Notes under the pieces: generated by a model
Database searches by the model: none
What the model saw: the letters and a program-made list of their open reading frames with translations, nothing else
What the model was told of the DNA's origin: nothing
In this document: piece by piece, positions 5,181 through 20,308 of the stretch
Layout of the letters: each line of letters starts with the position of its first letter
Numbering within the stretch: the first letter of the stretch is position 1
Origin: a virus
Direction: 5' to 3' (one strand)
Virus record (IMG/VR): IMGVR_UViG_3300025896_000234
Span: 1-20,308 of that record
DNA: 20,308 nt
Made by a program: the position numbers and the translations under genes

Positions 5181-5554
5181 TGGAAGATTTGGCCAAAATT
5201 TTTACCGGCGGTGATAAGCCAAAGCCGTATGTGAATTTTCCGCAGCGCAATCCAAATGAGCTGTATGACCGGAATGGTGTTCCAATTATAGACCCCAATG
5301 TGCAAAGCGGTCGCCTTGCTACGCCTAATGTATGGCGCCAAGAGGCTGGTAAAAACTTGGCTGCAGCCAATCCCCAAGCTCCAAATATTGGTGATTACAT
5401 GACGATGGTTTTGCAGGCCATGTTTGCGCCAAACCAAAGAGAGCCGCGCGATGATGCAAATGCTGTCATGAAAATGAACGCCTTCCAAAACCCGGCGCCA
5501 TTGGACGATAGAATGCAACGCATATGGGGGGACGGCGTGCCGGTTAGAAAATAA
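5180..5554 (+). CDS. Hypothetical protein in ejection-protein cluster (124 aa)
   Basis: A 124-residue protein of unknown function, Pro- and Asn-rich, with no predicted membrane segment. Visible traits are a short helix at the start (MEDLAKIF), a linker with many Pro (KPKPYVNFPQRNPNELYDRNG), and a Met-rich helix (YMTMVLQAMFA) at about residues 73-84. It overlaps both neighbours by TAATG or AATAATG junctions, so it is translated from the same message as the ejection proteins. That makes a virion-associated or assembly role likely. I do not recognise a family. Confidence 0.6.
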   Translation: MEDLAKIFTGGDKPKPYVNFPQRNPNELYDRNGVPIIDPNVQSGRLATPNVWRQEAGKNLAAANPQAPNIGDYMTMVLQAMFAPNQREPRDDANAVMKMNAFQNPAPLDDRMQRIWGDGVPVRK

Positions 5555-6759
5555 TGCCATATTCAACATCAAACAATCCTGGAATGGCGCAAGCCGCAAA
5601 TTCTATAGCCAAGATCTTTGTCGGAGATCCTGAGGCGGATGCTGCTTACAAAAACAACCAAATAAAAAATGAAACTGAATATGCTCGTCAGAGAATGCTT
5701 CAGGAGCAAATGCTTTCCGAAGGTGTCCGTCGCAAACAGATGGAGGCAGCTGCGGCTGCCAGCTATGCGGCCGCTAAGGCTAACCAGGGCCTGGCAGACG
5801 AGCGCGGCCGTAAGAACACGGCTGCCACAGATCTTGGCTCAATCTTCACGCAAGACCATAGAGACTTCAGCACGCCTGGTGGGATGTCGAAACCAGGCGA
5901 TGCTCCAGCCGGCACGCCTGGTGCAGGGTTTGATTTGAACAATCCAGCCATTGCAAGCCGTGTTGTTCAAAATATGCTGACAGGTGAAATGGATCCAAAG
6001 GTTCTCTCTGCAATGGCATTGATGCCTGGGCAGGATGATAACACCCTTGCGCGCATCATGACCGGATCTGGGCAGACGATCGGCAAAGATGATTACGTTT
6101 CCCTTGGTGATAGGAACACAAACCGCAATTATGAGCTTGGCGCCAATGAGCGCCTGGTTGGTGGCGGTGGCAATGTCATGCAGGGTGTTGATCCATCCTA
6201 TGCTGATTCTCAATCAGCTCTTGCTAAGCAGCGCAACGCCACGGCGAAAAGGCAAGAAACAATGGCGGCCGGCGGTGGGGGGAAGATCCCTCGTCTCGAC
6301 CAGGCGCAGATGAATTCGATGGTTTTGAATGCGATCCTTGCCCAGGGTGCGCAGATTCCAAAGAACGATGAAGGGGACTATTCAATGGGGGCGGCCGCAT
6401 ATCTTTCTGGACAGCCAGAAATTTATGCCGATATGTCGCGCCTGATTGATGAGGCATATCGCCTGTCTGGTGGCCGCGCCTCGGCCGTACAGGATGCGCT
6501 TTCTCAATATTTGTCTGGTGCCGATTTCAGCAATTTCAGGCAGCGCAAGGGCGAAGGCATGTTCAATGGCGCGCCGCGTGACGTGTTCAACCCAATCCAG
6601 CGCCCGGACCTTGAATCCATAATGTCTGCAATACAGCAAATGTATGGCCAGGGCGCCGGCATCTCGCCGGAGATCTTCACTGAAGGCGGAGATGGGGACT
6701 TGCAAAACCTACAAAATGTAGGTAACACTGGTGGCTGGCAGGTCATCGGGGTAGAATAG
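5554..6759 (+). CDS. Putative internal virion protein (T7 gp15 position)
   Basis: A 401-residue protein with an Ala/Gln-rich helical N-terminal half (RRKQMEAAAAASYAAAKANQGLADERGRK at about 55-80), a Gly/Asp-rich middle and a helical region at about 235-330. It takes the place of T7 gp15, the middle ejection protein, between the gp14-like gene and the giant last protein. The start overlaps the previous stop (TAATG). Its last 20 codons contain a perfect copy of the phage operator palindrome at 6708-6722, encoding the stretch LQNVG. That is odd, because the other copies sit in promoters. Function is inferred from position, with no catalytic motif seen. Confidence 0.5.
   Translation: MPYSTSNNPGMAQAANSIAKIFVGDPEADAAYKNNQIKNETEYARQRMLQEQMLSEGVRRKQMEAAAAASYAAAKANQGLADERGRKNTAATDLGSIFTQDHRDFSTPGGMSKPGDAPAGTPGAGFDLNNPAIASRVVQNMLTGEMDPKVLSAMALMPGQDDNTLARIMTGSGQTIGKDDYVSLGDRNTNRNYELGANERLVGGGGNVMQGVDPSYADSQSALAKQRNATAKRQETMAAGGGGKIPRLDQAQMNSMVLNAILAQGAQIPKNDEGDYSMGAAAYLSGQPEIYADMSRLIDEAYRLSGGRASAVQDALSQYLSGADFSNFRQRKGEGMFNGAPRDVFNPIQRPDLESIMSAIQQMYGQGAGISPEIFTEGGDGDLQNLQNVGNTGGWQVIGVE
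6708..6722. promoter_or_regulatory. Perfect intragenic copy of the operator palindrome
   Basis: CCTACAAAATGTAGG lies inside the gp15-position gene, 51 bases before the giant gene's ATG. TTGCAA (6700-6705) lies 17 bases from a poor -10-like TAACAC (6723-6728). It may mark a weak operator-controlled promoter, a roadblock site, or be coincidence. Confidence 0.45.
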
Positions 6760-6773
6760 CAAGGGAGCAATTT

Positions 6774-9700
6774 ATGGCAATTTACAAAATCAAAGCGCCT
6801 GACGGTCGTTTAATCAGCCTGCAGGGGCCTGATGGGGCATCTCAAGAAGAGGTGATTGCCAGGGCACAAAAGCTTTATCAGCCCAGCTCCCAGCCCCCAG
6901 CACCGGCATTGCCCCCCAGTGTGCCACAAATCGCGCCAGAGGCGGTTATTCCCACAGCCCCCATCGCTGCGACCGTAGATCCATCAACCGTTATCAGCGG
7001 GGCTCCTTCGCCCGTTCTGAGCCAAAGGCTGGCAGAGCCAGATCCAGGCATGGGGCCGTTTGAAGCAGACCCGAGTGTTGGCGCTGGATTTTCCAATAAT
7101 GCTTTGGACGTTGGCCGCAAGATTATGGATTCCACTGGCGCCGCCTATCAGGGCTTTGGCAACGTTATTGATAATTCCATATCAAGTGCAAAGCTCAACC
7201 TTGCGAGATTGTTTATCGGTGATGAAGAGCTGAATAGACGATCGGCAAATGCGCCTGCAGAGTTGATGGCACCTGATGACAATTTGGTGTCGCGCTCCGC
7301 GCGCGCCGTGGCCGATGACGCCTTTGGCGCTGCAAACAAGCTGGAATCCATCCAGATGCAAAACCCTGTCGACCGCCGTGGTCGCACAACGATCGATCAG
7401 ATTATTGCAGATCCGCTCAATGTTCCGCAGATAGCAAAATTTGGTTTTGAAACCGGGGTTGAATCCCTGCCGGAGATGGCAACGGCCGCCATTCCTGTTA
7501 TTGGGCCGGCTGCCTTTGGCTTGTCGATGAATGAGGGTATTGCGCAGCAGCGCGCTCAAAACGATGGGCGCGACAAAAGCGAAACAACCTTTAAAGACAG
7601 ATTGGCCGCTGCGCCATTCGCTGCCATATCGGCCATAACTGAAAGGCTCGGCATTAAGGGCCTGGGCTCAACCGGCAAAAATGCTGTAACTAGAACAGCG
7701 AAATCAGCGGCAAAAGAGGCTGGCACTGAAGCTATCCAGGAGCCGATAGAGCTGGCCGGACAAAGCATTGCCACGGACAATGAAGCCTCAGCTAAAGACT
7801 ATGGCAAGGCATCCCTGGGTGGCGCTATTGGTGGTGTCACTACAGGCGGAGGCTTAAAGGGTGGGGCAGAGGTTGCTGGTGCAATCAAGGACGCCACAGA
7901 AACGAAATCAGCATCATATTCTCCATTTGATCTTGGGGCCGGCACGCGCCAGCCAGTCAACGAAATCCCTCAGGTGTCACAGCCCTCTCCCCAGAGCCAG
8001 CCAGCTGTGAAGCGGGAGCCTGCGCAGCCACCGTCCGCTCCGTCGGTCGCAGCGCCAATTGCTCCTGTCGCTCCTATGCCTTCTGACCCGCCGGCTAAGG
8101 CGCCGCCTGAGGGAGCCAAATCACCAACCCGTAAAAAGGTCGTTACCCCTGATGGTAGCATCGAGATTGATACCGAGGATGAGATTGTTGATCTGGATTC
8201 CTTACAAAGTGCAAGCGGGGAAATCCAGCCGCGTGATCGATCCAGGGCTACAAGCGATATTCAGATCCAGGACATTGCATCAAAGCTAGACCCTGAAAGG
8301 CTTGGCGATTCTCGCACAACAGATATGGGATCGCCTATAGTCGGACCTGATAACCAGGTTGAAAGCGGAAACGGCCGCACGGCTGCAATCAGGATGGCTT
8401 ACCAGGCCAATGGTGAGCAGGCTGAGAAGTACAGGCAATCTCTTATAGCGCGCGGCTATAAGATTGATGGCATTAAAAACCCTGTTCTTATTCGTCGTCG
8501 TAAAACAGAGATGACGCCGGAAGAGCGCGTGCGCTTTACGACACTGAGCAACAAGCCGCAAATTGCAGAGATGTCATCGACAGAAAAAGCAAAGGCCGAT
8601 GCATTGCAAATCGACGACAATCTCATCAACCTGCACAAAGGTGGTGAGCCCAACAGTATGGACAATCAGGATTTTATCCGAGCGTTCATAGCGAAGATTG
8701 TCACCGGCAACGAAAGCAGCTCACTGATTGGCCCTGATAAAAATATCAACCAAGAGGGAATCAAACGCGCCAAAGCCGCAATGGTGGCAAAGGCATATAA
8801 TGATTCTGATCTTGTGGAGAATATTTTTGAAAACGCGGACCCAGAGATTCGGTCGATCGGCAATGCCTTGCGCGATAGGGCACCTGAATTCGCCCAGCTG
8901 GGGGCGGCCGTTAGGGCAAAGGAGACGCCGGCCAGGTTTGATATAACAAAGCAGCTGATGGATGCCGTCAGAATCATACGCGATGCGAAGCGTGATGGAA
9001 AGTCAATACGCGATGTTATCGAAGGCACAAAGCAGGCCAGCCTTATTGATGAGGCGCCAATCGATCCAATGGTTGAAAAAATTGTCCGTTCGATGTATCG
9101 TCCTGGGCTGGGAAGAATGCTGTCACAATCGGCAATCGATAAAGTTTTAAGGCAATATGCAGTAACCGCAAGAGAGCAAAAAGAAAATGATCTATTTGGA
9201 GAAAACACAAAACAGCCTGCGGATCTGCTTGATGCTGCCTACGAAAAAATCTCTGGGGAGTTGGAAGAGAAGGCGAGTGGACAGGGAGCCTTGCTCGACG
9301 CCGGACAAGATGGACCCATGGAAAAGGCAGCGCCTTCCAGGGGCATTGCCCGTGATACCGACGCCGGCAAACCAGCCAATGAGAGCGCAGGCGGCCTAGA
9401 ACAGGACGCCATAACGGCCGATAAAATTGGCACTCCTGAAGAGCTGGCCAAAACAAGTGGCCGAACATTTGGCGATGTTTCAAATAACCGAGACATCAAC
9501 ATCAATAAGCAGGTCTTTAAAGACGCCGGCCATGACCCTGAGGCGGCCGTTAATTACGCGCCCCTGAAGCAAAGAAAAATCATCATAGATCAGATCATGT
9601 CAAAATTTGGCATGAAGGTCGCCCTTGATGAAAAAATGAAAATCAAGGATCAGATCGATCACCTTGCTGATATGTATGTTGGCATGAATAATATGGCCGC

Positions 9701-12700
9701 TGTGCTTGGCATTCCTGCCAAGGGCATGTCCTTAAATGGTCGCCTGACAGTTATTCTTGAGGGCGGAAACAAGCCGTACCTGGGGCAATATGCACACGAT
9801 GGCGCGAGCATCGCTCAAATTTCACTCCCTAAAAAATCAAACTCATTCGCCCATGAATTCCTGCACGCGCTTGATGACTGGATGATGAGCCGCTTCGGGG
9901 CAATGACTGGAAAGCCAATTTTGTTTTCCCAGGCTGTCAGATCAGACGGCATCGTTGATCTTTCCAATCCCGTTCAAAGCTCTTTTGCAAACCTTCTGAA
10001 CGCGCTGTTTTACGACAAGGCTTTCCTTGCCTCAAAGATCCTTGAGCTGCAAAACCAAATCGACAAAACAAAATCAGAGAAAGTGAAAAATGACGCCCAG
10101 CGGAAAATTGATCAGATTAAATCTGGCAATTATGCCGGGATTGCAGGTAAGACTGATTTTTATAAAAACGCCAGAACGATGCCGAACGCGGATTATTTTG
10201 CTTCGCCGCATGAGATGATGGCCAGGGCATTCGAGGCATTCATCGCATACAAACTGAGCGATGCCGGTGTTACAACCCGTGCAGTTTCAAAGCTCGATGA
10301 CGCCTATAATTCAAACGCAGATGAGCGGCTTGCAAAAACATTCCCGAAGCTGGCGGATCGCATTCACATCTTTGAAGCATTCGATGCTTTCTTCTCTGCC
10401 GTGTCTATGGCGCAGGTTATGGGCACAGACGCCACACCCCAGGTCCAGGCCGATCCTGATTATCTGGGCATTTTCGATCCAAAGTATTGGGCATCGCCGG
10501 AAACCAGTGAGCAGCAGGCGGCCGCTAACATGGGTTTTGTGCGCCGTGAAATAGAATTCACCAAGGCGGCGATAAAGCGCTGGAAAGAAGAGCGCGCCAT
10601 AAAAAATGCAGAAGAGCAGCGCAATCAGAAAATCCGCGATACACTCGACCCCAAAGAACCTGGATTTAAGGGTTTTGTAAAACGTCTAGGGAAGGGCCTG
10701 TCTGATTCTTCAGGCTTTGCAATGTGGAATCACTTCTATAGGACAGAGCGCACCCTTGCGCATGCTATTGAGAAAAAGTATCAGGGCATTACTGCGCTGC
10801 GCGTTCTTAATGATCGTGTGTTTACACGACCAGGAGAGGCCACGGCTGTAAATCAGACGTATAATAAAAATATCTCCACATCGATTAATAGAGATTCCAA
10901 CATTCTTGAAAATCTAATGTCCACGTTAAAAAGTGGCGTTGATAAAAAGAAAACAAAGCTTACAGCAGATGAAAACGATCAGCTGCGCAATGCCATTCTT
11001 GGCCTGAAAATAGACGCCTCAAAGCTTACCGGCATGACAGAAAAGCAGTTAGTTTCTGCGGCCGCAAAGCTTCGTCAGTTTGCTGACCAGCAATGGGGCA
11101 ACATGAGCAAAGCCGGGTTTGAAATTGGCTACTACGAAAAGGGCGCCTGGCTGCGCCGGCATTACATGCGCGATGCTATTATGGCCGATCTGTCTGGCTT
11201 TACTGATAAGGCAGAGCTGACATATTTGGATCAGTTTGATGAGGTATTCCCCAATAGCGATGCGGCCGTTAAAAACATTGAAGACTTTGTTGATATGGTC
11301 AAGGGTATGCTTAGGGCAGATCCGGACGGTGTGAGCTTTGATAAGAAATCACTGCAGGCCATCATAGATGCGGCTAACGATAAAGATGCGGCCAAACTTA
11401 AAGAGCTGATCGATGACATTTTTGATGAGGTCCGTGAACAATACGCTGGCCTTGCTGCCAAGGCATGGCTGAAGAATCTCGTGAGGGATTCATCAGGTGG
11501 GGAATTTGAAAGCACATTCCCACGCCCAGGATTCATGAAAGCGCGCGGCCTTCCAGTGTCGGCCGATGTTCACATGAAAGACTACATGGAAACCAATGTG
11601 GAAAGAATTTTGTTCCACTATATGGTCTCCAGCAATACCGCAATTGCTCAAAAGAATGTCATGAATCCAGCTGGTGAGCAAAGCATGGAGCAGCTGCTAA
11701 ACGAGGCTCGCGACGCCGGCGCCAATGCCGATGATATTCGCAACCTTGAGGACGCTATCAACCGTGTCGTCCACGGCATCCAGCTCGGCCCCACAGGAAG
11801 AAAAATTGGCCAGTTTATATCGCTAATGAGAATGGGCGGGATTCTCATGAACCTGAACAAGGTCGTTTTCGCGGCCGTTGTGGAGCCTATGGTTGTCGGG
11901 TTAAAAACCAGAAACGTGACCAATGCCGCGATGGCCTACAGATACGCCATCGAAGATATGCTCAATACCGGTGAGGCAAAATACTTTAAAGATATCGCCC
12001 ACCTGATTGGCGCGATCGGCACCGACTATGCCGACATGATGCAGCAAGAACGCTTTGGCGGCGGCTTTGAAATGGGCCTGCTTAATAGGGAAACTATGTC
12101 AAAGTTTTTCAGGTACACCGGCAACACCGGCATTACCAACATTGAATCTCGCGTGGCAATTCGCTCAGGTTATCGCTGGATGAGCTTTGTGGCGGAGAAG
12201 CTGATCAATGGGACGGCCAAGGAAAAGTCCATGGCTGAGCGGGATTTGGCCGAGCTGGGCATTCCTGGCGGGGTGTACGCCAAGGCGTTCTCCACCTGGC
12301 TTTTGGACCAGGGCGGGAAGCCGGATATTAATTCCGTAATAAATGATAGCTCCAATGTTTTTGGCCATGCCTTTATTGTCGCTGCGAATCGATTCCGCGA
12401 TGAGGCTGTTCAGCAGCCAAAGAAAGAGGATCGGCCGGCGCTGGCAAACCACCCGGTTGGGGCTGTTCTCTATACCGGCCTTGGCTTTACGTTTTCATTC
12501 TGGGACAACGTTGTGAAGGCAGAGGCAAAAAGAGCAAAGGCAATCCTGCAAAACGAGGGTGGGGCAGCCTTCGCAAAGGTTGTGGCCAACCATGTTGCGA
12601 CGATCGGATCCATGGTCGTTATAAGCATGCTGATAGGTGCATTGAAGGGCGCTATATTTGATAGCGAGGAAAAGAAAAAGGAACATGCCAAGGATCCTGA

Positions 12701-13166
12701 AAAATACACAATGATGTTACTCGGCCGTGGGCTTGAAAACACGAACCTGGCTGGGCCTGCATATAGCATTATGTGGAATATGTATCGTGGCGCAGAGTAC
12801 GGAAAAGACCCGGCCACATCACTCTCTGGCATGGTTTTGTCAAACTATCTAAACTGGCTTCAAAAAGGGTTGGAGCTTGGCGGAGATAGGAATTCACCCA
12901 ACAACACAAATTCAGAGCGTGAGTTTGTTAAGCAGACATTCCGCGTGATGGCAGCCCCGGCCATTACCGCGGCCATGCTGAATGCCCCAGGCCCAGCTCG
13001 GTTGCTTGCCGTGCCCACTGGTGTTGCGGCGATGTTCTTAAACTCAAGCGCCACATCAGATCTTGTGGCAAATACAATCATTGGTGAAAAGGAGACTGGT
13101 CGTGGAAAAAAACGATCCGCAGAACCCGCAGAGCCCAAAGAGCCAAAAGAGCCCAAGACGGAGTAA
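6774..13166 (+). CDS. Giant polyvalent ejection protein with ParB-like (DdrB) and zincin metallopeptidase domains
   Basis: A 2130-residue protein in the T7 gp16 position, so probably ejected with the DNA. The N-terminus (IKAPDGRLISLQGPDGAS) is common in large podoviral ejection proteins. Residues about 40-110 and 385-460 are Pro-rich linkers, and 225-370 holds Gly/Ala-rich hydrophobic segments. A DdrB-type ParB-superfamily domain spans about 465-620 with the motif SGNGRTAA (G532-R535). A zincin-type metallopeptidase domain (large polyvalent-associated type) spans about 905-1190 with H1027-E1028-F-L-H1031 and SPHEMMARAFEAF at 1144-1156, which could give the third ligand. Residues about 1230-1900 are long helical stretches. 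Hydrophobic segments near 1690-1710 and 1936-1955 could insert in a membrane. No lytic transglycosylase is visible. AAGGGAGC at about 6761 is the ribosome binding site. The domains come from known polyvalent-protein families. The role in host entry is inference. Confidence 0.75.
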   Translation: MAIYKIKAPDGRLISLQGPDGASQEEVIARAQKLYQPSSQPPAPALPPSVPQIAPEAVIPTAPIAATVDPSTVISGAPSPVLSQRLAEPDPGMGPFEADPSVGAGFSNNALDVGRKIMDSTGAAYQGFGNVIDNSISSAKLNLARLFIGDEELNRRSANAPAELMAPDDNLVSRSARAVADDAFGAANKLESIQMQNPVDRRGRTTIDQIIADPLNVPQIAKFGFETGVESLPEMATAAIPVIGPAAFGLSMNEGIAQQRAQNDGRDKSETTFKDRLAAAPFAAISAITERLGIKGLGSTGKNAVTRTAKSAAKEAGTEAIQEPIELAGQSIATDNEASAKDYGKASLGGAIGGVTTGGGLKGGAEVAGAIKDATETKSASYSPFDLGAGTRQPVNEIPQVSQPSPQSQPAVKREPAQPPSAPSVAAPIAPVAPMPSDPPAKAPPEGAKSPTRKKVVTPDGSIEIDTEDEIVDLDSLQSASGEIQPRDRSRATSDIQIQDIASKLDPERLGDSRTTDMGSPIVGPDNQVESGNGRTAAIRMAYQANGEQAEKYRQSLIARGYKIDGIKNPVLIRRRKTEMTPEERVRFTTLSNKPQIAEMSSTEKAKADALQIDDNLINLHKGGEPNSMDNQDFIRAFIAKIVTGNESSSLIGPDKNINQEGIKRAKAAMVAKAYNDSDLVENIFENADPEIRSIGNALRDRAPEFAQLGAAVRAKETPARFDITKQLMDAVRIIRDAKRDGKSIRDVIEGTKQASLIDEAPIDPMVEKIVRSMYRPGLGRMLSQSAIDKVLRQYAVTAREQKENDLFGENTKQPADLLDAAYEKISGELEEKASGQGALLDAGQDGPMEKAAPSRGIARDTDAGKPANESAGGLEQDAITADKIGTPEELAKTSGRTFGDVSNNRDININKQVFKDAGHDPEAAVNYAPLKQRKIIIDQIMSKFGMKVALDEKMKIKDQIDHLADMYVGMNNMAAVLGIPAKGMSLNGRLTVILEGGNKPYLGQYAHDGASIAQISLPKKSNSFAHEFLHALDDWMMSRFGAMTGKPILFSQAVRSDGIVDLSNPVQSSFANLLNALFYDKAFLASKILELQNQIDKTKSEKVKNDAQRKIDQIKSGNYAGIAGKTDFYKNARTMPNADYFASPHEMMARAFEAFIAYKLSDAGVTTRAVSKLDDAYNSNADERLAKTFPKLADRIHIFEAFDAFFSAVSMAQVMGTDATPQVQADPDYLGIFDPKYWASPETSEQQAAANMGFVRREIEFTKAAIKRWKEERAIKNAEEQRNQKIRDTLDPKEPGFKGFVKRLGKGLSDSSGFAMWNHFYRTERTLAHAIEKKYQGITALRVLNDRVFTRPGEATAVNQTYNKNISTSINRDSNILENLMSTLKSGVDKKKTKLTADENDQLRNAILGLKIDASKLTGMTEKQLVSAAAKLRQFADQQWGNMSKAGFEIGYYEKGAWLRRHYMRDAIMADLSGFTDKAELTYLDQFDEVFPNSDAAVKNIEDFVDMVKGMLRADPDGVSFDKKSLQAIIDAANDKDAAKLKELIDDIFDEVREQYAGLAAKAWLKNLVRDSSGGEFESTFPRPGFMKARGLPVSADVHMKDYMETNVERILFHYMVSSNTAIAQKNVMNPAGEQSMEQLLNEARDAGANADDIRNLEDAINRVVHGIQLGPTGRKIGQFISLMRMGGILMNLNKVVFAAVVEPMVVGLKTRNVTNAAMAYRYAIEDMLNTGEAKYFKDIAHLIGAIGTDYADMMQQERFGGGFEMGLLNRETMSKFFRYTGNTGITNIESRVAIRSGYRWMSFVAEKLINGTAKEKSMAERDLAELGIPGGVYAKAFSTWLLDQGGKPDINSVINDSSNVFGHAFIVAANRFRDEAVQQPKKEDRPALANHPVGAVLYTGLGFTFSFWDNVVKAEAKRAKAILQNEGGAAFAKVVANHVATIGSMVVISMLIGALKGAIFDSEEKKKEHAKDPEKYTMMLLGRGLENTNLAGPAYSIMWNMYRGAEYGKDPATSLSGMVLSNYLNWLQKGLELGGDRNSPNNTNSEREFVKQTFRVMAAPAITAAMLNAPGPARLLAVPTGVAAMFLNSSATSDLVANTIIGEKETGRGKKRSAEPAEPKEPKEPKTE

Positions 13167-13722
13167 CACGCCGCTTCCTCCACACATTCGAGATAAGGGT
13201 ATAGCAACATACAATGAGCTTGTGCTTGCCCTGACGCCATTCATGAAGTGGCGCAGACGACAAGATATTTTAAAAGACTTTGAAAAAATACTGCCACACA
13301 CAAAGGATGGTAAATTTTACAATAGGGCTTTTTCATGCTGCCTTTGGAATTTAAAAAAAAGAGGCTATATCGAAGTCATGCATGGAGAGAAAACAGTAAG
13401 CTCAAGAAAGGAGCTTAAAACTCCGCACAAGGCGTATTATAGAAGGCTGGTTAAAAGCGCCCACAAAACCAAAAACAGAGACAGCATGCTGAATGGCACA
13501 CATGGGATGGGTAAGGCAAAAAAGGCAGCCATGAAAAAAATTGGCCCCCCTCGCAAAGAGCCCAAAAAACTCACAATGGACGACATCAGAAAAATCCAAA
13601 ACAAGCCTGACTATTTAAGCTTCAGAGCCGTTGCTGAAATGCATGGTATTAGCATGTGTCTTGCTAGAAAAATATATTTTGGATACGTTCCTAAATATAT
13701 TACAAAGCCGCCTGCTCAATAG
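13102..13722 (+). CDS. Small basic protein with C-terminal helix-turn-helix
   Basis: A 206-residue Lys/Arg-rich protein, probably DNA-binding. The GTG at 13102 is chosen because GGAG at 13091-13094 lies seven bases upstream. The in-frame ATG at 13063 has no ribosome binding site and would add 13 residues inside the giant gene. It overlaps the end of that gene by 65 bases in another frame. Residues about 30-110 look like a winged-helix-type fold (NRAFSCCLWNLKKRGYIEVMHG). The C-terminus (LTMDDIRKIQ, then FRAVAEMHGISMCLARKIYFG at about 175-195) matches the HTH tail common in phage regulators and in HNH-type nucleases, but no nuclease motif is present. It ends 23 bases inside the opposite-strand integrase. 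A regulatory role is possible. The family is not recognised. Confidence 0.65.
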   Translation: MEKNDPQNPQSPKSQKSPRRSNTPLPPHIRDKGIATYNELVLALTPFMKWRRRQDILKDFEKILPHTKDGKFYNRAFSCCLWNLKKRGYIEVMHGEKTVSSRKELKTPHKAYYRRLVKSAHKTKNRDSMLNGTHGMGKAKKAAMKKIGPPRKEPKKLTMDDIRKIQNKPDYLSFRAVAEMHGISMCLARKIYFGYVPKYITKPPAQ

Positions 13723-14563: not shown

Positions 14564-14601
14564 GAAAAAATAACCTTTCAATTAAAAATGACATGAGCTA
14601 T

Positions 14602-14630
14602 ATTCTACAAAATGTAGGGGGAAAAATCAA
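14602..14630 (-). promoter_or_regulatory. Leftward sigma70-type promoter for int
   Basis: Read on the - strand: TTGATT (14625-14630), a 17-base spacer and TAGAAT (14602-14607). Transcription would start near 14595, about 30 bases before the integrase ATG. An operator copy overlaps the spacer and the -10 box, so binding should block polymerase. This is seen by pattern and not tested. Confidence 0.65.
14604..14618. promoter_or_regulatory. Operator copy 1 (TCTACAAAATGTAGG) in int promoter
   Basis: A 15-base inverted repeat with 6-base arms around an AAA centre, one base different from CCTACAAAATGTAGG. It covers the -10 side of the int promoter. Its centre lies 37 bp from that of operator copy 2, about 3.5 helical turns. 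Confidence 0.75.
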
Positions 14631-14633
14631 GGT

Positions 14634-14662
14634 TTGACTTCCTACAAAATGTAGGGTATGAT
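14634..14662 (+). promoter_or_regulatory. Rightward early promoter
   Basis: TTGACT (14634-14639), exactly 17 bases, then TATGAT (14657-14662), close to sigma70 consensus. The operator fills positions 2-16 of the spacer. A start near 14669 would leave a leader of only about 11 bases, with the AAGGA ribosome binding site almost at the 5' end before ATG 14680. Confidence 0.8.
14641..14655. promoter_or_regulatory. Operator copy 2 (CCTACAAAATGTAGG) in early promoter spacer
   Basis: A perfect inverted repeat, CCTACA-AAA-TGTAGG, placed between the -35 and -10 boxes with one base left on each side. Occupancy would exclude polymerase from the early promoter. The most likely binder is the HTH protein encoded just downstream, or a repressor outside the window. 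Confidence 0.8.
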
Positions 14663-14679
14663 CTAAAAAGGATGGCAAA

Positions 14680-14910
14680 ATGATTCGTAGAAACCAAAAG
14701 ACAATTGATGCGGAGGCTATCGTTAAGTTATTTGGCGGTAAGCATCAAATCGTTGCTGACTACGAAAAAATTCTTCGTGTCGTCATCAGCGTAAAGGCCG
14801 TGGAGAAGTGGCTTGAGCGAAGCGCGATCTCGATCACAAACCTGCTAAGCCTTCAGACTATAGCAGAGCGCAAGGAAATCGATTTTAAACTTGAGGACTA
14901 CATAAAATGA
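14680..14910 (+). CDS. Small Cro/CI-like helix-turn-helix regulator
   Basis: A 76-residue protein, first gene of the early operon. The layout VKLFGGKHQIVADYEKILRV at about 15-34, then VSVKAVEKWLERSAIS-like recognition helices, then LLSLQTIAERKEIDFKLEDYI, matches small phage Cro-like HTH proteins of the FGG...W...R type. It likely binds the CCTACAAAATGTAGG operators that flank its own start and so regulates itself and int. It overlaps the next gene by ATGA (14907-14910). It could be a Cro, an excisionase-like factor or the lysogeny repressor. No other repressor gene is visible between int and the early genes, and the assignment of the operator to this protein is inference. Confidence 0.7.
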   Translation: MIRRNQKTIDAEAIVKLFGGKHQIVADYEKILRVVISVKAVEKWLERSAISITNLLSLQTIAERKEIDFKLEDYIK

Positions 14911-19281: not shown

Positions 19282-20155
19282 TGTAAGCGCCAGCGTGAAA
19301 TTGACTGAAGAGGTGGCCATGTTCAGCCACCTTGACAAGAGCCTGGTTGCATCCAGGCAGGCTGAAGAGGCCAATCGGTATAAGGATCGGGCGAAATCCC
19401 TGGGCGCCGGCCGTGTGGGGCACCCTCTGGCGCCAACGCCCTGGGATCGCGGATGCGAGCGCGCTTTGTGGTTTGAAACAAAGCAATACGCAAGCGATCG
19501 TCCATTCTCACACAACCTTTACCGTATTTTCAGCATGGGGCATGCAGCTGAGGCCATCGTTGCAGAGAACATCAGGTTGGCAGGCTTTACCCTCCTGACA
19601 GAGGATGCGCAGGGAAACCAGTTTGGCTTCGCCATAGCGCACGCCCCCACCACCGGCCAGCCAAGAATGAAAGGGTTTTGTGATGGTGTTATTGTCGCAG
19701 GCCCTGAATCAATCGCCATTGGCGGCGATACCGTGGCTTTGAAATATCCGTTCTTGTGGGAAAATAAGGCCATCAATTCAAAAAAGTTTGCCAAGTTTGT
19801 TGCGGAAGGTGTTGAGCGTTCTCATCCTCACTACTATGGACAGATCCAGATTTACATGAATTTTTTCCAGCTGTATCAAAATCCAGCCCTTTTAACGGTC
19901 CTGGATAGGGAGAGCGGGGAGTTGCGGTGTGAATTCGTGCGCTTTAATCAAAGGCATTGCCAGGCGATCCTTGATCGCGCAGCACGCATCATTGAGGCAA
20001 AGGGTCCGCTGGTGCTCGACAGGGCGGCAGATGACTATACGAAAATTCCCTGCAAGTGGTGTGATTTCCGTAGCCACTGCGAAAAGGCAGAGCTGAATAG
20101 AAGTCAGGACACCGGCGAACAGCAAGCGCCGTCGTGGTTACAAAAACAAGATTGA
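19241..20155 (+). CDS. Cas4-like PD-(D/E)XK nuclease with Fe-S cluster
   Basis: A 304-residue RecB-family nuclease of the Cas4/AddB-like type. The motif I His is H101 (SMGHAAEAIV). Motif II Asp is D148 (KGFCDGV). Motif III is E174-N-K176 (LWENKA). The Gln motif is in YYGQIQIYM at about 197-205. One cysteine near the N-terminus (C72, GCERALW) and three at the C-terminus (C271, C274, C280 in PCKWCDFRSHC) make the 4Fe-4S set. It may resect DNA ends for the ATPase and SSB-like proteins of this operon. GGAGAAG precedes ATG 19241. There is no adjacent cas1/cas2, so it is a phage recombination enzyme rather than a CRISPR adaptation gene. Confidence 0.88.
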   Translation: MSEGQPLNFFRAGDVSASVKLTEEVAMFSHLDKSLVASRQAEEANRYKDRAKSLGAGRVGHPLAPTPWDRGCERALWFETKQYASDRPFSHNLYRIFSMGHAAEAIVAENIRLAGFTLLTEDAQGNQFGFAIAHAPTTGQPRMKGFCDGVIVAGPESIAIGGDTVALKYPFLWENKAINSKKFAKFVAEGVERSHPHYYGQIQIYMNFFQLYQNPALLTVLDRESGELRCEFVRFNQRHCQAILDRAARIIEAKGPLVLDRAADDYTKIPCKWCDFRSHCEKAELNRSQDTGEQQAPSWLQKQD

Positions 20156-20180
20156 TTACCGACAAAATGTAGGATATAAT
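20152..20180 (+). promoter_or_regulatory. Second operator-controlled promoter
   Basis: TTGATT (20152-20157), 17 bases, then the perfect -10 box TATAAT (20175-20180). The operator sits at the same offset in the spacer as in the early promoter at 14634. It begins inside the nuclease stop region and would fire the last partial gene with a leader of about 15 bases. Confidence 0.8.
20159..20173. promoter_or_regulatory. Operator copy 3 (CCGACAAAATGTAGG)
   Basis: Differs from the perfect palindrome by one base (T to G at position 3). Its place between -35 and -10 repeats the design of copy 2, so it is probably under the same repressor. Confidence 0.75.
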
Positions 20181-20201: not shown

Positions 20202-20308
20202 ATGCGAGAAGTTTACGTCAATACAGTAATAATCACCAGTATCTGCATCAAGCCAGGTAAAAAATTTGCATTCGGGCTTATTTTTGAAACCAAGCCGCGC
20301 ACTGTTTT
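20202..20308 (+). CDS. Start of a phage gene cut by the window end
   Basis: An open frame from ATG 20202 to the window edge, 35 visible codons beginning MREVYVNTVIITSICIKPGKKF and continuing with FGLIFETKPR. GGAGAGAG at 20192-20199 is a strong ribosome binding site at a suitable distance. The fragment looks beta-rich and shows no recognisable motif. It is the first gene after the second operator-controlled promoter, so it begins a separate transcription unit of the early region. Confidence 0.6.
   Translation, partial: MREVYVNTVIITSICIKPGKKFAFGLIFETKPRTV

Follow-up and report, generated by a model that had tools for sequence, protein, structure and literature searches.

Operator-like palindromes in the int, early and further promoters of an uncultivated integrase phage group, with a Cro-like protein as their candidate regulator

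Palindromes and promoters at the int/early region

The DNA analysed here (the window) is the whole 20,308-bp stretch of the IMG/VR virus record IMGVR_UViG_3300025896_000234, in which a tyrosine integrase gene and the gene of a 76-residue HTH protein are divergently oriented (Table 1). The original prediction had placed between these genes two palindromes, one of them with a single mismatch and with 37 bp between their centres, inside two back-to-back promoters with 17-base spacers. Both palindromes, centred at 14611 and 14648, and the boxes of both promoters were found as described, with a gap of only 3 bp between the two -35 boxes. The location of the palindromes had to be amended in part, since the exact copy lies fully within the spacer of the early promoter but the copy with one mismatch also overlaps the -10 box of the int promoter. 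Two further copies that had previously gone unnoticed are present in the window, an exact one at 6708-6722 and another with one mismatch at 20159-20173. When strand-matches with up to three mismatches were counted over the whole window and compared with dinucleotide shuffles, 6 were found against 0.36 expected, a number that was reached in none of 100 shuffles, and a scan of the window with the reversed pattern as a control rendered no match.

Table 1. Coordinates of the features in the window, and of the corresponding sites in the related locus L006
Feature	Position	Strand	Sequence or match	Context	Site in L006
Putative operator 4	6708-6722		exact palindrome	3' end (last codons) of ORF 5554-6759	
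Tyrosine integrase, 287 aa	13700-14563	-	phrog_1, E 1.7e-50; PF00589		
int promoter (P_int)	14602-14630	-	TTGATT (14630-14625), 17-nt spacer, TAGAAT (14607-14602)	sigma70-like	
Putative operator 2	14604-14618		TCTACAAAATGTAGG = TCTACA-AAA-TGTAGG, single arm mismatch	overlaps spacer and -10 box of int promoter	7932-7946, identical 15-mer
Early promoter (P_R)	14634-14662	+	TTGACT (14634-14639), 17-nt spacer, TATGAT (14657-14662)	sigma70-like	
Putative operator 1	14641-14655		CCTACAAAATGTAGG = CCTACA-AAA-TGTAGG, perfect 6-bp arms	wholly in 17-nt spacer of early promoter	7969-7983
Predicted Cro-like HTH protein, 76 aa	14680-14910	+		heads early operon; proposed binder	
Third promoter	20152-20180	+	TTGATT-17-TATAAT	directly after Cas4-like exonuclease gene	
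Putative operator 3	20159-20173		CCGACA-AAA-TGTAGG, one mismatch	in spacer of third promoter	13183-13197 (orthologous site)

Scored against random 61-bp stretches of the window, the int promoter ranked in the top 3.5% and the early promoter in the top 0.55%. A plain consensus scan of the window for promoters was not significant (6 found, 4.5 expected), so that the case rests on conservation in the relative described below. Downstream of the third promoter, an ORF that starts at 20202 and runs off the window is, by reading, the homologue of a 113-aa ORF of that relative. Operator 4 is located 52 bp upstream of a 2130-aa ORF (6774-13166) whose matches are confined to PHROGs without an assigned function (phrog_5143 being the best, E 4e-71), and whose product is possibly a large polyvalent protein.

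Conservation of the sites in related records

A search with the 76-residue protein rendered one clear relative, L006, which is part of the 46,651-bp record G001. This record appears to be complete, since the portal ORF interrupted at its end seems to resume in frame at its start. Its proteins are 30-71% identical to those of the window and are encoded in the same order, and all four sites of the window are kept at equivalent places, one within the 3' end of the homologous coding sequence, two between int and the HTH gene, and one after the exonuclease gene. Also conserved are the distance of 37 bp between the two palindromes next to int and that of 3 bp between the divergent -35 boxes, the early promoter reading TTGACT-17-TATAAT and the int promoter TTGACT-17-TAGAAT. 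Loss of the palindromes from relatives that retain the flanking genes would have spoken against the original prediction, and this relative retains both. Moreover, two additional palindromes were found in G001, making six in total, one of them within TTGACC-17-TATAAG and the other, at 32167, close to several small genes that are oriented leftward. At the latter, TTGACT-18-TACGAT could be read by eye, the top match of the scorer being a different one. Strong promoter matches coincide with three of the four sites in the window and with at least four of the six in G001, mostly in the same register. With at least four sites in the window and six in G001, the locus is better described as part of a regulon than as the self-contained 61-bp switch first envisaged. 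In G001, a group of small genes that lack annotation and are transcribed leftward (L112 14562-16624) carries an operator palindrome at its head, and no HTH domain was found in those of its members that were scanned.

The palindrome is also found in more distant phages. In four further records, a homologue of the 76-aa gene is followed by the same early genes and preceded at its 5' side by the palindrome with 0, 1, 1 and 2 mismatches, matches that were equalled by 0, 0, 0 and 6 of 3000 shuffles, respectively. Chance palindromes lying beside chance promoter-like boxes, an idea with which the non-significant consensus scan would agree, are therefore hardly credible, given these four records and given that the positions of all four copies, their spacing and the promoters recur in G001, at 30-71% protein identity. 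When the sites are compared, it is the arms that are conserved, the triplet at the centre being variable (AAA, AAT, CTT, GAT, AAC), as expected of a site for a dimer.

In L119 and L120, a gene encoding an XRE protein (PF01381, E 2e-10 and 4e-11, respectively) lies between int and the operator, which is the classic position of CI. This slot by the operator contains no XRE gene in the window, G001 and G002/G003. The two copies adjoining int in the window could suggest arm-type or core integrase sites (attP), but this is very unlikely, since the copies at 6708 and 20159 and the two additional ones of G001 lie at distances of kilobases, for the most part in promoters, and since the site remains 5' of the 76-aa gene homologue where another gene separates it from int (L119, L120) or where int is not adjacent (L121). 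No tRNA that could serve as an att site was found in the window or in G001.

Neither a match to the 76-aa gene nor a palindrome with up to two mismatches was found with the Sak4 homologues L125-L129. A search of 50,697 phage records rendered no relative of the 76-aa protein, and no match was obtained at the DNA level. A contig of Elusimicrobia (L123) retrieved in a scan of genome contigs was discarded as spurious because the gene context is absent. Most exact matches to the 15-mer in viral contigs were likewise set aside as unrelated, many of them being in terminator-like or coding contexts; in unrelated phages (e.g., viral contigs L009, L010, L020 and L031) the same 15-mer is the stem of a terminator-like hairpin, AAACCCTACAAAATGTAGGGTTTTT. 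A different arrangement was observed in the unrelated viral contig L042 (IMGVR_UViG_3300045135_000633), with seven ACCTACA-N3-TGTAGGT palindromes (at 246, 832, 1510, 3126, 4226, 5455 and 7462), five located 12-27 bp before the start codons of consecutive genes and two immediately ahead of hairpins that resemble terminators; this would seem to be a different kind of intergenic signal, distributed over the whole contig.

It could be argued from these contexts that the palindromes act as RNA hairpins, either terminators or processing sites, as many unrelated viral contigs carry the same 15-mer within AAACCC...GGGTTTTT and the stretches at 6708 (z -2.7) and 14600-14680 (z -5.8) fold well. We consider this highly improbable, because the promoter copies are upstream of the predicted starts and hence outside the transcripts from those promoters, no T-run follows the palindromes, the copy at 20159 folds no better than shuffles, and no Rfam match was obtained.

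The copy inside a coding sequence offers another view of conservation. The six codons (N-L-Q-N-V-G) over this palindrome are all identical between the window and G001, whereas codon identity at identical degenerate residues is 38.5% in the eight aligned genes and 33% in the gene that contains the palindrome; only two runs of six identical codons occur across the eight genes. This is suggestive, but not proof, of selection acting on the DNA sequence. No good promoter was found by scoring at this site in the window, where the score is average (P 0.65), and in G001 it is slightly raised (P 0.12); the site may represent a weak promoter or a roadblock.

A Cro-like protein as candidate regulator

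The original prediction had named the 76-residue HTH protein as the candidate binder, and by structure prediction it is an HTH protein with a Cro fold. Its AlphaFold2 model (pLDDT 90.9) consists of five helices, and the all-helical fold of N15 and P22 Cro is confidently predicted. The top Foldseek match among solved structures was N15 Cro (probability 0.80, with a weak E of 0.67), and VIA-align gave a Z of 5.5 with N15 Cro and of 4.9 with P22 Cro, although other XRE folds tie and Cro is not distinguished by these values from the remaining small XRE folds. The protein matched no Pfam family, P22_Cro included, and two homologues scored 17.8 and 13.7 bits with P22_Cro, under the cut-off of 30.2, so that the Cro assignment is based on the fold together with these sub-threshold matches in relatives. 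In a viral library, three uncharacterised phage proteins matched it at E below 0.001. Residues 37-47, which comprise the predicted recognition helix and its start, are the most conserved part of the protein and contain 7 of the 13 residues that are invariant in six homologues (p 0.0004). This clustering of invariant residues would be in line with a conserved operator.

Taken as operators, the palindromes are probably the targets of a regulator of the phage itself, most likely this Cro-like protein. A homodimer of it would bind CCTACA-N3-TGTAGG. Occupancy of operator 1, in the spacer of the early promoter, would block the polymerase, by which the protein would curb its own synthesis and that of the recombination and replication genes. 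A dimer on operator 2 would cover the -10 box of P_int, turning off the integrase, and one on operator 3 would likewise turn off a second early unit, whereas the operator at 6708 would mark a site ahead of the gene of the giant 2130-aa protein. Additional competition may come from the divergent -35 boxes, which at a distance of 3 bp would let polymerase occupy one promoter at a time, as expected from the general footprint of the enzyme. That a single protein controls both int and the early operon, as first proposed, gains from the operator-like palindromes that overlap the two promoters, with the identity of that protein at the level of probability given above. The accompanying idea of looping or cooperative binding between operators 1 and 2 is unlikely, since 37 bp amounts to 3.5 helical turns, and with the sites on opposite faces of the DNA the dimers are not expected to touch each other directly or to form a loop of 37 bp; the fixed spacing can be explained by the back-to-back promoters with their -35 boxes 3 bp apart.

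It can also be the case that the operators are read by another repressor of the lysogeny type, either encoded elsewhere in the phage or a host protein (e.g., LexA-like), the 76-aa protein being one of two readers or having another target, as in CI/Cro. The XRE HTH_3 gene between int and the operator in two relatives would agree with this, the window is a fragment of a genome, and a host regulator is conceivable. A weakly HTH-like protein is, moreover, conserved near int. This 206-aa protein (13102-13722), encoded convergently with int, shows weak HTH-like matches in its L006 homologue and is a possible second DNA-binding protein; its structure model (pLDDT 59) was uninformative. On the other hand, no HTH_3, HTH_26 or S24 domain was found anywhere in the window, G001, G002 or G003, G001 looks complete, and the operator stays beside the 76-aa gene with or without the XRE gene. 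We therefore regard another reader as unlikely.

A Cro-type autorepressor fits the gene order better than a lysogeny repressor does, since the 76-aa gene heads the operon that it would shut off, and since in two relatives the position of CI is taken by a distinct XRE repressor. The first gene of an operon repressing its own operon cannot by itself explain stable lysogeny. It is tempting to speculate, though we regard this as rather unlikely, that a lineage of integrase phages has lost its CI-type repressor and runs its life cycle on a single autoregulated Cro-like protein, with operators in int, early and further promoters and also within a coding sequence whose codons, being of dual use, are constrained to preserve the operator. 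These results define a regulon for an uncultivated phage group and name a candidate for its regulator. They also raise the question of how lysogeny is controlled in an integrase phage whose CI slot beside the Cro gene is empty, a question that can be tested by comparing relatives that carry the XRE gene with those that lack it.

Comparison with known phage control systems

The stoperators of cluster A mycobacteriophages are 13-bp sites that for the most part lie outside promoters and have one predominant orientation (PMC6550527). The phages described here share with them the recurrence of a single motif at many genomic positions, in promoters and within genes, as well as the possession of an integrase or other inheritance genes (PMC6550527). 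They differ in that their sites are few, with 4 in 20 kb and 6 in 46.6 kb, and are palindromes located for the most part in promoters, and many asymmetric sites lying mainly outside promoters were not found. A reading as asymmetric, orientation-dependent stoperators was rejected, given the lack of conservation of the central triplet.

The resemblance to the CI/Cro switch of the lambda type lies in the divergent transcription over shared operators and in the conserved Cro-like gene, and operators overlapping both divergent promoters are found in the window. The complete layout of int, XRE repressor, operator and Cro-like gene is present in L119 and L120. In the window, int and not a CI-type gene faces the Cro gene, and the system was not classed as a lambda-type switch because the CI gene was sought and not found.

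The Cro repressors of N15, PY54 and phiKO2 and that of P22 belong to the all-helical Cro class and act with OR operators (PMC4488713, PMC4997575). As in N15 and P22, the candidate regulator is a small helical HTH protein encoded by the first gene of a rightward early operon, and a palindromic operator of about 15-18 bp overlaps early promoters. The differences are that int, rather than cI, lies across the operator in the window, G001 and G002/G003, that the operators of these phages are also spread over other promoters, and that the similarity of the 76-aa protein stays below the Pfam cut-offs. The system would work like a Cro-type operator system.
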